Of a stretch of DNA of 64,000 bases, positions 46,852-53,143 are shown in pieces. The DNA comes from Haloarchaeobius iranensis (GTDB lineage: Archaea; Halobacteriota; Halobacteria; Halobacteriales; Natrialbaceae). The position numbers were made by a program, and so were the translations under genes. The notes below the pieces were generated by a model that made no database searches, was not told the origin of the DNA, and saw only the letters and a list, made by a program, of their open reading frames with translations. Positions within the stretch are counted from its first letter, which is position 1; each line of letters starts with the position of its first letter. The stretch is from assembly GCF_900103505.1 (NCBI RefSeq), contig NZ_FNIA01000003.1, positions 124,001 to 188,000 of the forward strand, read 5' to 3'.

Positions 46852-47970
46852 ATGGGTGCATCAAGCACGTACGACAGGGCCCGCAGCCAGATAGTCGAGA
46901 AGCCGATGACGGCAGTACTGGGGATAATCGCAGTACTGCTCGTCTTCGACCTCGTCAGACAGCTCGCGACTGGTAACCTCACCATCGCGCGGATGATGAG
47001 TCTGGTTCTCGACGGAGTGCTTCGGGGTCTCGTCATAGGGTTGGCGGGTATCGGGCTCTCGATGACGTACAGTATTCTGAACTTCGCGAACTTCGCCCAC
47101 GGTGATTACATCACGGCGGGGGCGTTCTCGGGGTGGGCCACCACGTACGTCATCGCCGGTGGCTTCGGCTCCGCTGCCAACATCGGTTCGCTGGCGCTGG
47201 TGGGTTCCGGCGGTTCGGTGTTCGGTGGTGCGCTCGGCATCAACGCCGTCCAGACGCCGCTGGCCGTGCTCGCCGGGCTGGTGGTGTCCGGCGTGTTCAC
47301 CGTCGCGCTCGCGCTCGCCATCGACAAGTTCATCTACAAGCCGATCCGCGGCTCGGGGGGCATTCCGCTCCTCATCACGAGCGTGGGCGTGGCGTTCGCG
47401 CTCCGGTACGTCATCCAGTTCGTGTTCGACTCGGGCACGCGCGGGGTGACCAACACCGGATCGCTCCCCGGCATCCGGCCTAACGTCATCGACGGGACGG
47501 TGGCGGTCACTGCACACGACGTGCTGCTGATCCTCGTCGCCGGCGGCCTGATGCTCGGCGTCCACATCCTGCTCCAGCGGACGAAGCTGGGGAAGGCGAT
47601 GCGGGCGATGTCGGACGACGAGGCGCTGGCGCGCATCACCGGCATCGCGACCGAGCGCGTCATCCGCTCGACGTGGATCATCGGCGGCGGCCTGACGGGC
47701 GTCTCCGGGTTCATGTTCGTGCTCTGGAAGGGCACGATCAGCTGGAACGACGGCTGGCTGCTGCTGCTGCTCATCTTCGCAGCGGTCATCCTCGGCGGTA
47801 TCGGTTCGGTGTACGGCGCCATCGCGGGCGGCCTGGTGATCGGGCTCACCGCCTCGACGGCAGTGATCTGGATCCCGTCCGGCTTCGCCCGTGCCGCCGC
47901 GTTCGGCGTGATGATCCTCGTCCTGGTGGTACGTCCGCAGGGCATCTTCGCAGGGAGGTCTACAGCATGA
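46852..47970 (+). CDS. livH: Branched-chain amino acid ABC permease LivH
   Basis: 372 residues, about eight to nine transmembrane segments. SMTYSILNFANFAHGDYITAGAF is the family's first conserved block, GLVVSGVFTVALALAIDKF the next, MRAMSDDEALARITGIATERV the cytoplasmic EAA-like loop, and GGIGSVYGAIAGGLVIGL the last conserved helix. It pairs with LivM to form the channel. The stop overlaps the livM start (ATGA). Confidence 0.93.
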   Translation: MGASSTYDRARSQIVEKPMTAVLGIIAVLLVFDLVRQLATGNLTIARMMSLVLDGVLRGLVIGLAGIGLSMTYSILNFANFAHGDYITAGAFSGWATTYVIAGGFGSAANIGSLALVGSGGSVFGGALGINAVQTPLAVLAGLVVSGVFTVALALAIDKFIYKPIRGSGGIPLLITSVGVAFALRYVIQFVFDSGTRGVTNTGSLPGIRPNVIDGTVAVTAHDVLLILVAGGLMLGVHILLQRTKLGKAMRAMSDDEALARITGIATERVIRSTWIIGGGLTGVSGFMFVLWKGTISWNDGWLLLLLIFAAVILGGIGSVYGAIAGGLVIGLTASTAVIWIPSGFARAAAFGVMILVLVVRPQGIFAGRSTA

Positions 47971-49385
47971 GCGACGACGAATCAGGGGGTGAGTACGGGC
48001 AGAGCACGGAGGAACAGCGTGCGGTAGTGATGGGCATCGACTTCCGGAACGACGGGTTGATGCTGCTGACGATGCTCCTCGGCATCTACATCATCTACCT
48101 CCTCGCCGGACTGGTCATCGGGTTCCCGTTCCGGGGGCTGATGAACCAGATCGGCCAGCTGACGTTCTGGATCGCCGTGTTCGCGATGGCCTCCCTCGCG
48201 TTGAACCTGCACTGGGGATACACGGGGCTGTTCAACATCGGTATCGTCGGGTTCATGGCGACCGGCGTCTACGTGACCGGCATCCTCTCGAAGCCGGTGT
48301 TCGGCTCCGGGACCAGTGCAGCGGAGATCGGCGGGTTCGGCCTGCCGCTGTGGATCGGCATCATCGGCGGGACGGTCGCGGCCGGGCTGCTCGGGCTCAT
48401 CGCCGCGTTGCCGGCACTCCGCTTGCGTGCGGACTACCTGGCAATCGTCACCATCGCGCTCTCCGAGATCGTCCGGTTCTCGTTGCTGTCGGACTCGCTG
48501 AGCGGCCACGAGATCGCCGGCTACCGCGTCGGCCTCGGTGGCGGTGACGGGGTCATCCTGGACTATCAGGACCCCCTCGAGAGCCTGATCCGCGCGCTCA
48601 GTGCGCCGTTCGACCTCATCCTCGGGGAACAGGGGTGGCTGTGGAACGACGTGTACCTCGGCATCGTCGTCGACTTCGTGGCGAACTTCATCCCGAACAA
48701 CCCCAAGCCCGTCGTCGACAACTTCGCGTACTCCGCCGTCCTGCTGCTCATCCTCGGCGGGTTCTACGTCGTCATCCGTCGGATGGGGAACTCCCCGTTC
48801 GGGCGGGTGCTCAAGGCCATCCGCGAGGACGAGGACGTGACGAACGCGCTCGGGAAGAACACGAACATGTTCAAGATAAAGTCGTTCGTGGTCGGCTGTG
48901 CCCTGATGGGGCTGGTCGGCATCCTCTGGTTCGGCACGCAGGGCTCGGTCACGCCGAACACGTTCCGCCCGCGCATCACGTTCTACATCTGGATCGCGCT
49001 CATCATCGGCGGTGCCGGGTCGAACTCCGGCAGCGTCATGGGCGGTGCGGTGTTCGCGGCGTTCCTGTTCCAGGGGCCGCGGTACTTCAAGAACGTCATC
49101 GAGACGGCGCTCGGGAACCCCGAGGCACCGTCGAGCTTCGGCCAGGCGATGCTGCCGGTTTCGAACGGTGACGTCGTGCCGTTCCTGCTCTACACGCTCG
49201 ACAGCATCAGGCAGCTCCAGCTGTTCATGATGGGCGTGGTGCTCATCGTGCTGATGCACCGGCGTCCCGACGGGATGCTCGGCCACCGGAAGGAGCCGGC
49301 GTCCAGCATCCCCCTGACCCGGCCGATCAAGCGCTCGGGCGGCGGTGACACCGTCGCGACCGACGGAGGTGAGACCGATGAGTAG
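47967..49385 (+). CDS. livM: Branched-chain amino acid ABC permease LivM
   Basis: 472 residues, larger than bacterial LivM (about 320-420). ASLALNLHWGYTGLFNIGIVGFMATGVY is the signature block, ALRLRADYLAIVTIALSEIVR the second, RVLKAIREDEDVTNALGKNT the EAA-like loop, and GGAGSNSGSVMGGAVFAAFL the final block. Insertions between helices (about 48540-48720) account for the extra length. It overlaps livH by 4 nt and livG by 8 nt. Confidence 0.93.
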   Translation: MSDDESGGEYGQSTEEQRAVVMGIDFRNDGLMLLTMLLGIYIIYLLAGLVIGFPFRGLMNQIGQLTFWIAVFAMASLALNLHWGYTGLFNIGIVGFMATGVYVTGILSKPVFGSGTSAAEIGGFGLPLWIGIIGGTVAAGLLGLIAALPALRLRADYLAIVTIALSEIVRFSLLSDSLSGHEIAGYRVGLGGGDGVILDYQDPLESLIRALSAPFDLILGEQGWLWNDVYLGIVVDFVANFIPNNPKPVVDNFAYSAVLLLILGGFYVVIRRMGNSPFGRVLKAIREDEDVTNALGKNTNMFKIKSFVVGCALMGLVGILWFGTQGSVTPNTFRPRITFYIWIALIIGGAGSNSGSVMGGAVFAAFLFQGPRYFKNVIETALGNPEAPSSFGQAMLPVSNGDVVPFLLYTLDSIRQLQLFMMGVVLIVLMHRRPDGMLGHRKEPASSIPLTRPIKRSGGGDTVATDGGETDE

Positions 49386-50241
49386 CGAACCCGAGACCTC
49401 CGGAGGCACGGGCGGTGTAGACGAGACCGACGACCGGACGCTGACCACGCTCGGCGGGGCCGGGGACACCGCGGAGGTGCCGCTGAAGGTCAGCGGGCTC
49501 GAGAAGCACTTCGGCGGTATCACGGCCGTCGACGGTGTCGAGTTCGAGATAGACAAGGGGAGCATGACCGGCCTCATCGGCCCGAACGGGGCCGGGAAGT
49601 CCACCACGTTCAACTGCATCACCGGCACGCACAAACCCGACGGCGGCCGCGTCGAGTTCAACGGCCAGGACATCACCGGACTGGAGCCGTACCAGGTCGC
49701 GGACCGCGGTCTCGTCCGGACCTTCCAGATCGCCCGGGAGCTCGGCGAGATGACCGTCCTCGAGAACATGATGGTCGCGCCGAAGCACCAGCGCGGCGAG
49801 GCGCTCTGGCGGTCGGTCCTGCCCTACGCACGGAACAGCGTGAACCAGCAGGAACAGGAGATTCTCGAGCGCGCGTGGGAGACGCTCGAGTTCTTCGACA
49901 TCGACCACCTCGCGAACGAGTACGCGGAGAACCTCTCCGGTGGCCAGCGGAAACTGCTGGAGCTGGCCCGTGCGCTGCTGACCGACCCGCAGATGCTCCT
50001 GCTGGACGAGCCGTTCGCCGGCGTCAACCCGTCGCTGGAGGAGCGCCTGCTCGAACACATCCACGAGCTGCGCGACCAGGGCTACACGTTCCTCATCGTC
50101 GAACACGACATGGACCTCATCATGGAGAACTGCGAGAAAGTCATCGTCATGCACCAGGGTCGCATCCTCACCGAGGGGACCCCGGAGGACGTACGGAACA
50201 ACGAGGACGTCATCGAGGCCTACCTCGGGGGTGAGGTATGA
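49378..50241 (+). CDS. livG: Branched-chain amino acid ABC ATPase LivG
   Basis: 287 residues from the ATG at 49378. Walker A GPNGAGKSTT, Q-loop TFQIARELGEM, signature LSGGQRKLLELA, Walker B MLLLDEPFAGVNP, switch His VEHDMDLI. The C-terminal EDVRNNEDVIEAYLGGE is typical of LivG. The first 30 residues are an acidic extension. The stop overlaps livF as ATGA. Confidence 0.95.
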   Translation: MSSEPETSGGTGGVDETDDRTLTTLGGAGDTAEVPLKVSGLEKHFGGITAVDGVEFEIDKGSMTGLIGPNGAGKSTTFNCITGTHKPDGGRVEFNGQDITGLEPYQVADRGLVRTFQIARELGEMTVLENMMVAPKHQRGEALWRSVLPYARNSVNQQEQEILERAWETLEFFDIDHLANEYAENLSGGQRKLLELARALLTDPQMLLLDEPFAGVNPSLEERLLEHIHELRDQGYTFLIVEHDMDLIMENCEKVIVMHQGRILTEGTPEDVRNNEDVIEAYLGGEV

Positions 50242-51014
50242 GCCCCGACGACGTGGCCACGGACGGCGGGGCGGCCACGAGCGCCGCCCAGGACGTCACC
50301 CTCTACGAGGACAGCCTGCTCTCGGTGCGGAACTTGGACGCCGGCTACGGTGACCTCCAGATCCTGACCGACGTGGACCTCGACGTCACCGAGCAGGAGT
50401 ACGTCACCATCGTCGGCCCGAACGGGGCCGGCAAGTCGACGGTGATGAAGTCGGTGTTCGGACTGACCAGCCACATGGGCGGGACGGTGACGTTCGGCGG
50501 CGGGGACATCACGGCCGAGCGGCCGGAGGACATCATCCACCTCGGCCTCGGCTACGTCCCGCAGAACGACAACGTGTTCAGCTCGCTGTCGGTCCGGGAG
50601 AACCTCGAGATGGGTGCGTACATCCTCGACGAGGTCCCCCAGGACGCGCTGAACGAGGTGTTCGACCGCTTCCCCATCCTGGAGGAGCGCCAGACACAGA
50701 AGGCCGGGACGCTCTCGGGCGGCCAGCAGCAGATGCTCGCGATGGGTCGGGCGCTGATGCTCGACCCCGACCTGCTCCTGCTCGACGAGCCCTCCGCCGG
50801 GCTCGCACCCGACCTCGTCGCGGACATGTTCGACCGCATCGACGCGATCAACGACGCCGGGACGGCCATCCTGATGGTCGAGCAGAACGCGAAGGAGGCG
50901 CTGCGCCGCTGTGACCGCGGCTACGTCCTCGTCGACGGGAAGAACCGCTACGAGGACGAGGGGACGACCCTCCTGAACGACCCGCAGGTGCGCCAGGACT
51001 TCCTGGGCGGCTGA
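50238..51014 (+). CDS. livF: Branched-chain amino acid ABC ATPase LivF
   Basis: 258 residues. Walker A GPNGAGKSTV, LGLGYVPQNDNVFSSLSVRENLEMG (the LivF-type Q-loop region), signature LSGGQQQMLAMGRAL and Walker B LLLLDEPSAGLAP are intact. Last gene of livHMGF; a T-run lies just downstream. The binding-protein gene is separate, convergent at 51176-52477. Confidence 0.95.
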   Translation: MSPDDVATDGGAATSAAQDVTLYEDSLLSVRNLDAGYGDLQILTDVDLDVTEQEYVTIVGPNGAGKSTVMKSVFGLTSHMGGTVTFGGGDITAERPEDIIHLGLGYVPQNDNVFSSLSVRENLEMGAYILDEVPQDALNEVFDRFPILEERQTQKAGTLSGGQQQMLAMGRALMLDPDLLLLDEPSAGLAPDLVADMFDRIDAINDAGTAILMVEQNAKEALRRCDRGYVLVDGKNRYEDEGTTLLNDPQVRQDFLGG

Positions 51015-51032: not shown

Positions 51033-51175
51033 CGGTGCCACAGTCGTCGCCAGCGGTGCCGCCGTCGCCCGTTCGCCGGCCGTTGCCACCGAGGTCCGCA
51101 ACTCGAGGGTCGCCCGCGGAGCGCGGTCGCTCGTCGGTCGAGGCGTCGAAAGAAGGGAGTGTGTCTGGTCGTCGC

Positions 51176-52477
51176 TTACTCGGCCGACATCGCGTCGCTG
51201 ACCACGGAGGAGTACGAGGACTCGCCCTGGTTGAACGCGACCTGGCGCCAGACCGAGCCGTCGAACTCGTCCTCGAACACGGACGAGAACCGCTCGGAGA
51301 GCTGCTGGCCGTAGTCGTTGTTGATGTACAGCGTCGCACAGGTCTCGGCCTCGAGATCCTCGGAGGCGACCTGTGCCATGACGCGGCCCTGCAGGCGGTC
51401 CGAGGGCGCGGTCCGGAAGACGTAGTCGTTGTCGTCGAGGTTCGTCACGGAAAGCGCGGTACTCGACGGGGAGCAGCCGACGATCTCTCCCGGGATGAGG
51501 ACCTCCTGACAGACCGGGACGTTCACACCGGACGACGCGGTCCCACAGATGTACGGGTAGCCGGCGTTGACGAGCGAGTTCGCCGCGCTGACACCCGACT
51601 GGGAGTTCGTCTCGGTGTCTTCCAGCTGCGTGTCGACCGTGAGGTCGATGTCGGACTCGTTGACCTGCTGGGGCGGAATCCGCGAGGCGTTGATCATCGA
51701 CTCACCGGTCGATGCGAGCGCCCCGGTCTCCGGCAGGAGGATCCCGAGCATGATTTCGCGACCCATGCCACCGGGCATGTCGTCGGCCGACGGGCCGGAC
51801 CCCTCCGGGTTCGCGCCTGCGAAGTTCTCGGTCCGGATGGTCGACGTGCTGTCGCCGTCGAACTCCCACAGCGCGTACGCTGCGGACGCAGGGTCGCCGT
51901 TCTGGTCGAAGTTGACCGAGCTCGACGCACCCTGGTAGTTCACCGGCTCGCCGTTCGCGGCCGCCTCGACGCCTTCGACGAAGTTGTCGGGCGTTACCTC
52001 CATCCCGTCCGGGTTGGCGATGTTGCGCATCTGGTCGCGGATCGCGGTCCCGGAGTTCTCGCCGGCGGCCGCGTTCGCGAGGATGCCGACCGCCGCGGAG
52101 TCGTACGACTGGGACGAGAAGACGCCCGGCGACTCACCGTAGACATCCTGGTACAGCGACTCGTAGGCGGACTGGGCCGGACCCCCTGCTGCGGGCGCGG
52201 TCCCGGTGATGTTGCTCATGTCGTCACCGACCTGTCCAGGGAGGTCGGGGTCGCGGAGACCGTCGGGGATGAGAATGTCCGTATCGTCGCCGTAGCTGCT
52301 GTAGAAGTCCCGGAACAGCTGGATACCGTCCTCCGGGTATCCGACGACAGTGATCATGTCGGGACTGCTACCACCACCACCGCCCCCACCAATGCACCCT
52401 GCCAGACCTGCTAACCCTGCAGTTCCAGCGATTCCGGTAGTCTTCAGCACTTCGCGCCGTTGCAGTTTCCGTGCCAT
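51176..52477 (-). CDS. livJ: Branched-chain amino acid binding lipoprotein with circularly permuted order
   Basis: 433 residues. The signal has lipobox LAGC (Cys28) and a poly-Gly linker. Residues 39-220 start PDMITVVGYPEDGIQLFRDF, which in type I periplasmic binding proteins is the middle of the fold, just after the first lobe. They run on to the normal C-terminal end. Residues 239-433 start GREIMLGILLPETGALASTG, normally the mature N-terminus, and contain YICGTASSGVNVP and FRTAPSDRLQG. The protein ends SSVVSDAMSAE, which would normally be followed by PDMITVV. So the order is swapped around one point within one unbroken frame. Both lobes are complete. It is convergent with livHMGF, whose binding protein it probably is. 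Confidence 0.9.
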   Translation of the reverse strand: MARKLQRREVLKTTGIAGTAGLAGLAGCIGGGGGGGSSPDMITVVGYPEDGIQLFRDFYSSYGDDTDILIPDGLRDPDLPGQVGDDMSNITGTAPAAGGPAQSAYESLYQDVYGESPGVFSSQSYDSAAVGILANAAAGENSGTAIRDQMRNIANPDGMEVTPDNFVEGVEAAANGEPVNYQGASSSVNFDQNGDPASAAYALWEFDGDSTSTIRTENFAGANPEGSGPSADDMPGGMGREIMLGILLPETGALASTGESMINASRIPPQQVNESDIDLTVDTQLEDTETNSQSGVSAANSLVNAGYPYICGTASSGVNVPVCQEVLIPGEIVGCSPSSTALSVTNLDDNDYVFRTAPSDRLQGRVMAQVASEDLEAETCATLYINNDYGQQLSERFSSVFEDEFDGSVWRQVAFNQGESSYSSVVSDAMSAE

Positions 52478-52558: not shown

Positions 52559-53143
52559 TCAGACCTGTCGGCAGTCGGAACAGACTAACTGGCCGTTCGA
52601 GTCGTGTAACGAATCGGTCAATGCCCCGCAGAGCTCACAGACGCCCTGTGAACCGTACTCGTCCTCGGGGAGGGTAGCCTCGCTCTCGACGGCGGTCGCC
52701 GCGGTCGCGACCCCCTCGATGGTCGCCTCGGTGTCGAGCGACCGGGAGGCCTGGAGGGTGCTCGCGGCTTCGATGACGTCCCGCTCGGTGAGCACGCCGA
52801 CGATATCCTCGGCATCGGTGCCGTCCGTGACGACGAGGTTCCGGATCTCCTCCCGCGACATCGTCTCCGCCGCGTCCGCGAGCGGTCGGCTCGCGGCCAT
52901 CGTGATGACCGGCTGGGACATCAGCTCCCCGACCGAGGTTGATTCCGGGTCCGTGCCGGTCGCCACCATCTCGAGGACGTCCCGTTCGGTCATGATGCCG
53001 ACCGGGGTCGACCCTCGCAAGACGAGGACGCTGCCGACGTCCTCCTCGTGCATGAGCTGGACGGTGCTGTGCACCGAATCTGATTCACTGACGCCGACGA
53101 ACTCTCGCGCGGTCACATCACGAATCGACACATCGCGTTCCAT
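52559..53143 (-). CDS. Two-CBS-domain protein with C-terminal zinc ribbon
   Basis: 194 residues. Two CBS repeats: DSVHSTVQLMHEEDVGSVLVL with GIMTERDVLE, and RPLADAAETMSREEIRNLVV with GVLTERDVIE. Such pairs bind adenine nucleotides such as AMP or ATP. Residues 165-194 form a small zinc ribbon (CELCG and CSDC). The combination suggests a nucleotide-sensing regulator that also binds nucleic acid or protein, by inference. A single gene upstream of the livJ start on the same strand. Confidence 0.85.
   Translation of the reverse strand: MERDVSIRDVTAREFVGVSESDSVHSTVQLMHEEDVGSVLVLRGSTPVGIMTERDVLEMVATGTDPESTSVGELMSQPVITMAASRPLADAAETMSREEIRNLVVTDGTDAEDIVGVLTERDVIEAASTLQASRSLDTEATIEGVATAATAVESEATLPEDEYGSQGVCELCGALTDSLHDSNGQLVCSDCRQV

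Follow-up and report, generated by a model that had tools for sequence, protein, structure and literature searches.

Does the gene that faces the livHMGF operon of Haloarchaeobius iranensis encode a solute-binding protein (SBP) whose two halves stand in exchanged order, and, if so, how often has such an order arisen and what does it do to the receptor? The window analysed here is a stretch of 64,000 nt (GCF_900103505.1, NZ_FNIA01000003.1, positions 124,001-188,000), for which a first-pass annotation had proposed a circularly permuted LivJ-type protein. Our reading, held with good confidence, is that the gene encodes a tethered LivHMGF receptor that was permuted three to four times in Halobacteria at one loop of lobe 2 (cut A), and was then permuted again (cut B).

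Chain order and predicted fold

The layout of the gene and its neighbourhood is given in Table 1. The encoded protein opens with a Tat-type RR signal (MARKLQRREVLKTTG...LAGLAGC28) that ends in the lipobox Cys28 and is followed by a Gly linker. The permuted start lies at residue 39 (PDMITVVGYPEDGIQLF / PDMITVVGYPEDG), the old N-terminal strand, GREIMLGILLPETG, is reached at residue 239, and the chain ends with SSVVSDAMSAE. Searched as encoded, the protein is matched by the Pfam profile PF13458 in two stretches, the best of which aligns residues 242-432 with profile positions 2-189. The alignment with PDB entry 3td9 also falls into two off-diagonal blocks, residues 239-431 on chain positions 14-202 and residues 38-158 on positions 204-327. 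Rotation to the normal order gives a single uninterrupted PF13458 match (4-316 on profile 2-315), with 96.3 bits against 82.6 bits as encoded; the cut-off of 31.7 is exceeded both ways. In the profile search the Pfam matches were PF13458 and PF01094, with no sugar-SBP model. Because the swapped stretches unify into a single match only once rotated, the protein represents a homologous permuted PF13458 subfamily and not a canonical member. A normal domain order was ruled out by the PF13458 stretches, the 3td9 alignment and the rotation result alike.

Table 1. Features of the SBP gene and its neighbours, in window coordinates
Feature	Position	Strand	Basis or remark
Circularly permuted type I solute-binding lipoprotein gene (cut A), 433 aa	51176..52477	(-)	Profile/PDB alignment; order conserved in 158/392 Halobacteriales genomes
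Tat-type signal and lipobox, residues 1-28 (LAGC28)	52394..52477	(-)	Sequence; RR motif in all compared members, lipobox in most
Gly-rich tether, residues 29-38, fused directly onto the permuted start	52364..52393	(-)	Sequence; identical junction in every compared cut-A member
Canonical C-terminal half, about residues 38/39-216, encoded first	51830..52363	(-)	
Linker from old C to old N terminus, residues 217-238, ENFAGANPEGSGPSADDMPGGM	51764..51829	(-)	SADxxPGG motif conserved within clade A1
Canonical N-terminal half, residues 239-433, encoded last	51179..51763	(-)	
LivH permease	46852..47970	(+)	
LivM permease	47967..49385	(+)	Start MSDDESGG
LivG ATPase	49345..50241	(+)	
LivF ATPase	50238..51014	(+)	Convergent with the SBP gene
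CBS-domain/zinc-ribbon-like protein	52559..53143	(-)	Frequent conserved SBP neighbour, upstream of the SBP gene

AlphaFold2, supplied with the mature protein and 59 permuted sequences, returned a model with pLDDT 92.8 and pTM 0.88, in which the linker scores pLDDT 84-93; the protein is thus predicted to keep an intact bilobed type I fold. Foldseek and VIA-align matched this model to leucine-binding and type I SBPs over about 190 residues, mostly in its last half, as expected because the chain order differs. The top matches, almost all limited to about half of the model, included no solved structure with the cut-A chain order; the first VIA-align match, 5er3, spans more of the model at 10% identity.

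The permutation described at first pass is therefore genuine, on the strength of the two 3td9 blocks and the single match after rotation, and the features that it had read from the open frame (Cys28, the Gly linker, the strand at residue 239 and the SSVVSDAMSAE end) are exactly as stated. The model agrees with its view that both lobes are complete in one frame, residues 217-238 form the short connection that it had seen between the old termini, and the export signal has indeed been relocated onto the new start. Its placement of the break in a hinge-adjacent loop is not supported: in the model, cut A separates the last helix (385-392) of lobe 2 from its first strand (3-7). Cuts A and B each open a helix-to-strand loop, probably on the side of the lobe opposite the cleft, as suggested for cut A by the pocket Tyr, which sits at the opposite end of the first strand. 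On the other strand, a 459-residue open frame (window 51035-52414, +) runs antisense to the SBP gene and is most likely a GC-rich shadow frame.

Spread and probable recurrence of cut A

The cut-A order was counted at a threshold of E<=1e-100, which the normal-order proteins seen do not reach (about 1e-67 at best) because just one half aligns at a time. It was found as one collinear match in 158 of the 392 sampled Halobacteriales genomes (~40%), spread over 36 of 95 genera, and outside the order no cut A was detected at E<=1e-35 in a 295-genome sample of the phylum. Within Haloarchaeobius, three genomes (G002, G003 and G004) match the whole query (residues 1-433) in the swapped order with 91-94% identity, and two (G001 and G005) carry a normally ordered homologue at 49-57% identity. 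The same order was seen in Haloarchaeobius sp. FL176, Halalkalirubrum salinum, Halostella pelagica (on a complete chromosome), Haloglomus irregulare, one Natronomonas MAG and three Halobellus species; seven bacterial relatives (L028-L034) and the paralogues in the window's own genome have the normal order. The junction is thus shared with other haloarchaea, a point that the first-pass annotation had raised, and this count, together with cut B, contradicts its statement that the order of the family is otherwise fixed. The local event that it implied gives way to a cut that is old and recurrent. In G001 (L012/L120) and G005 (L013/L121), a normal-order SBP and a divergent LivHMGF stand by a similar CBS gene, replacing the permuted one.

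When the halves were placed in canonical order for a 103-row SBP tree, cut A fell into clades A1 (with the window protein), A2, A3 and A3b, all of them embedded among proteins of normal order, and a single cut-A clade was recovered in 0% of bootstraps. An independent LivHMGF tree and separate trees of the N half and the C half recover the same clades. The sisters of A2 are the normal-order L135 and L139 in every tree, and A1 adjoins the normal-order L120/L106/L107 in the LivHMGF tree and lies near them in the whole-SBP tree. Cut A is non-monophyletic in all trees made and appears to have three to four separate origins, since a normal-order root gives 4 gains with the SBP tree or 3 with the LivHMGF tree, the alternative being 1 gain with 7 reversions.

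This alternative, a single ancient origin in Halobacteria followed by reversions (also through duplication and trimming) or by spread between operons through recombination, is the likeliest of the rival readings. The opened loop is identical to about three residues across all cut-A clades and the linker lengths are similar, as one origin would predict, and the tandem permuted pairs that exist could re-create the normal order. The AU tests, run on sets smaller than 103 rows with groups named after the trees were seen, rejected one cut-A clade with p-AU 0.023 on SBP alone and 1.9e-75 on SBP with LivHMGF, yet on SBP alone they rejected neither A1+A2 (p 0.117) nor A1+A3 (p 0.087). The SBP-only AU support for multiple origins is accordingly moderate, and the strong rejection leans on LivHMGF, whose history could differ. 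On the other hand, besides the 7 reversions and the agreement of the N-half, C-half and LivHMGF trees, the linkers speak against a common source: they agree within clades and differ between them (..FEGxxPxGxGPSADxxPGGxGR in A1, ..ELSxEDxNATAxDPVGVDxF in A2 and ..PQPEPxGSGSGaDRTV in A3), and no normal-order protein inspected retains a remnant of a cut-A linker. We therefore consider a single origin unlikely and prefer three to four separate openings of the same loop.

How each opening came about is suggested by comparison of the sequences. The likeliest route to cut A would begin with a tandem duplication of the SBP gene in place, followed by an in-frame fusion across the junction of the two copies and by deletion of the leading N half and the trailing C half, with the first copy's export signal staying in front. 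The fold and the amino-acid pocket would be kept, and the lipid tether would exit from lobe 2 instead of lobe 1. This is the tandem duplication with loss of the outer ends put forward at first pass, which still appears likeliest, although its traces are weak and no full N-C-N-C intermediate was found among the SBP homologues sampled. Halobellus-type members end in ..ALSGPDS and start with ..GPEG, so that a few residues are repeated at both ends, and in A1 the Gly-Gly-Arg that directly precedes strand 1 looks like the end of the tether in neighbours with the normal order (GGGGREIKYG in L120). These repeats and resemblances, as well as the tandem permuted pairs, may be traces of duplication, but they are suggestive only.

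Tandem pairs of permuted SBP genes were seen at L094, L095 and L160, and two matches were also present in G157, G161, G171, G176 and G195. In the L094, L095 and L160 pairs, one copy has the lipobox and the other lacks its Cys (..GLMGNLQQGG); the two may be differently anchored, or one may be secreted. An odd score in G168 was traced to an interrupted permuted gene, with its two parts (L162 and L163) ~1.4 kb apart, which suggests an insertion or a pseudogene.

A second permutation

Cut B was found in two proteins from draft assemblies, L027 (Halobacteriales archaeon SW_9_67_25) and L096 (G312), both of which adjoin livF. Each starts with its own Tat/lipobox signal and Gly tether and continues directly with lobe-1 strand 2 (at about residue 277-280 of the window protein). 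The remainder of the N half follows, then the C half and an A1-like linker (GPSADEMPGG / GSSADEMPGS), with strand 1 and helix 1 at the very end. A query rotated to cut B gave one full-length match, G312, in 1 of the 392 genomes of the order; the close homologues met in this rotated search were all of the normal, A or B form, with no further cut site. AlphaFold2 gave L096 a pLDDT of 92.9 and a pTM of 0.90 from an input alignment that consisted partly of A and N fragments.

Since both proteins keep the A1-type linker, which none of the inspected normal-order proteins has, and both are nested inside A1 in the SBP tree, B is derived from A, in the order N to A to B. Inside the window's clade, the second step would thus have shifted the start to the loop before lobe-1 strand 2. 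A clade of the two cut-B proteins was rejected (p-AU 0.020, for a grouping named after the tree was seen), and cut B may therefore have arisen twice. By eye, about three residues at the C-terminal end of L096 (NEADLDIS) recur at its own N-terminal start (GLEINPTVEDT), a short overlap of the kind that duplication might leave.

The receptor and its tether point

The livHMGF genes (46852-51014, +) converge tail-to-tail on the SBP gene (-), and in nearly all loci with enough flank the SBP gene is convergent with livF, whatever the architecture. From this linkage we infer that the permuted protein is the cognate receptor of that importer. Its ligand is probably an amino acid. In the normal-order alignment, residues S79, T102 and Y150 of the E. 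coli leucine-binding protein are matched in the N half, and Y202 and E226 are matched in the C half as Tyr and Asp, the latter a conservative change; these five we take to be ligand contacts of the E. coli protein. Several of the leucine-pocket positions are invariant or nearly so across the 59 permuted sequences. The CBS-domain protein upstream (52559-53143) bears a C-terminal zinc-ribbon-like CxxC pair and is a possible regulator of the importer.

Could the protein be a genuine fold variant that no longer serves transport, as a sensor or decoy for example? A CBS-domain gene often adjoins it, and some lineages have two copies, one without the lipobox Cys, both of which would suit such a role; but the gene adjoins LivHMGF, most loci hold no other SBP there, and the pocket positions are conserved, which makes a non-transport role quite improbable. 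The window gene is under purifying selection, with dN/dS of 0.106-0.240 against five relatives. To the least tenable reading, in which assembly or annotation has rearranged a normally ordered gene of the 73-contig draft, we give practically no credence: it is already refuted because the same order recurs in more than 150 genomes from independent assemblies (on a single contig in several) and in named cultured strains, with a proper Tat/lipobox signal joined to the new start and dN/dS of 0.11-0.24.

The twin-arginine motif is present in all compared members and the lipobox in most, and the median tether is about 18-27 residues long in every architecture. Judged from the order of the elements, the tether would enter lobe 1 in the normal order, lobe 2 in cut A and lobe 1 again in cut B. 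It is possible, although we put this forward only tentatively, that the permutation is recurrent and adaptive, the same loop having been opened 3-4 times since a tether on lobe 2 alters docking to LivHM, and cut B having brought the tether back to lobe 1 through re-permutation and not by reversal. Most descriptions of natural circular permutations treat them as single old events. In this receptor family, normal, once-permuted (with several origins at the same loop) and twice-permuted forms share one operon position in one archaeal order, and their coexistence offers a natural experiment on whether it matters where a lipoprotein receptor is tethered. That question was raised for TpMglB-2 and left open there (PMC4990184).

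TpMglB-2 (Tp0684), a sugar-binding lipoprotein with a natural permutation and a crystal structure, assigned to a proposed 'Type Ic / Cluster Bc', is the closest precedent, and its authors suggest that adaptation to tethering drove the permutation (PMC4990184). Both it and the window protein are natural circular permutations of a type I solute-binding lipoprotein found in many species. TpMglB-2 keeps the fold, ligand binding and closure, and the window protein is predicted to keep the fold. The former belongs to the MglB sugar family of spirochaetes and Gram-positives, the latter to the amino-acid LivJ family PF13458 of Halobacteria. In TpMglB-2 the cut lies inside the N-lobe sheet, with the first three strands moved to the C terminus and a fourth crossover added, and one topology is reported; cut A, in contrast, opens lobe 2 and transfers the complete first half, strand 1 and helix 1 alone are displaced in cut B, and the haloarchaeal proteins appear to have several origins and include a second re-permutation. 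Canonical LivJ/LivK proteins (PF13458; PDB 3td9, 4gnr and 1usg) are homologous to the window protein in both halves, share its conserved pocket positions and are likewise LivHMGF-linked, but differ in chain order and in the site of the membrane tether. Natural circular permutations, some of them multiple, are also known from DNA methyltransferases, cpGTPases and swaposins (PMC3320104; cpRAS PMC2430557), and duplication and fission/fusion models of permutation have been reviewed (PMC3320104). These proteins share the duplication-and-trimming model but differ in fold and function; in the present case a single archaeal order holds all three forms (normal, once-permuted and re-permuted) at one and the same place in the operon.

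In the openly accessible literature that was searched, we found no earlier account of permutation in a LivJ-type protein or in haloarchaeal SBPs. What is new is the family, the cut sites, the recurrence and the stepwise re-permutation, of which the recurrence and the second permutation are the unusual parts. Both chain orders score as the same Pfam family, and domain annotation by local hits can therefore hide rearrangements of this kind.
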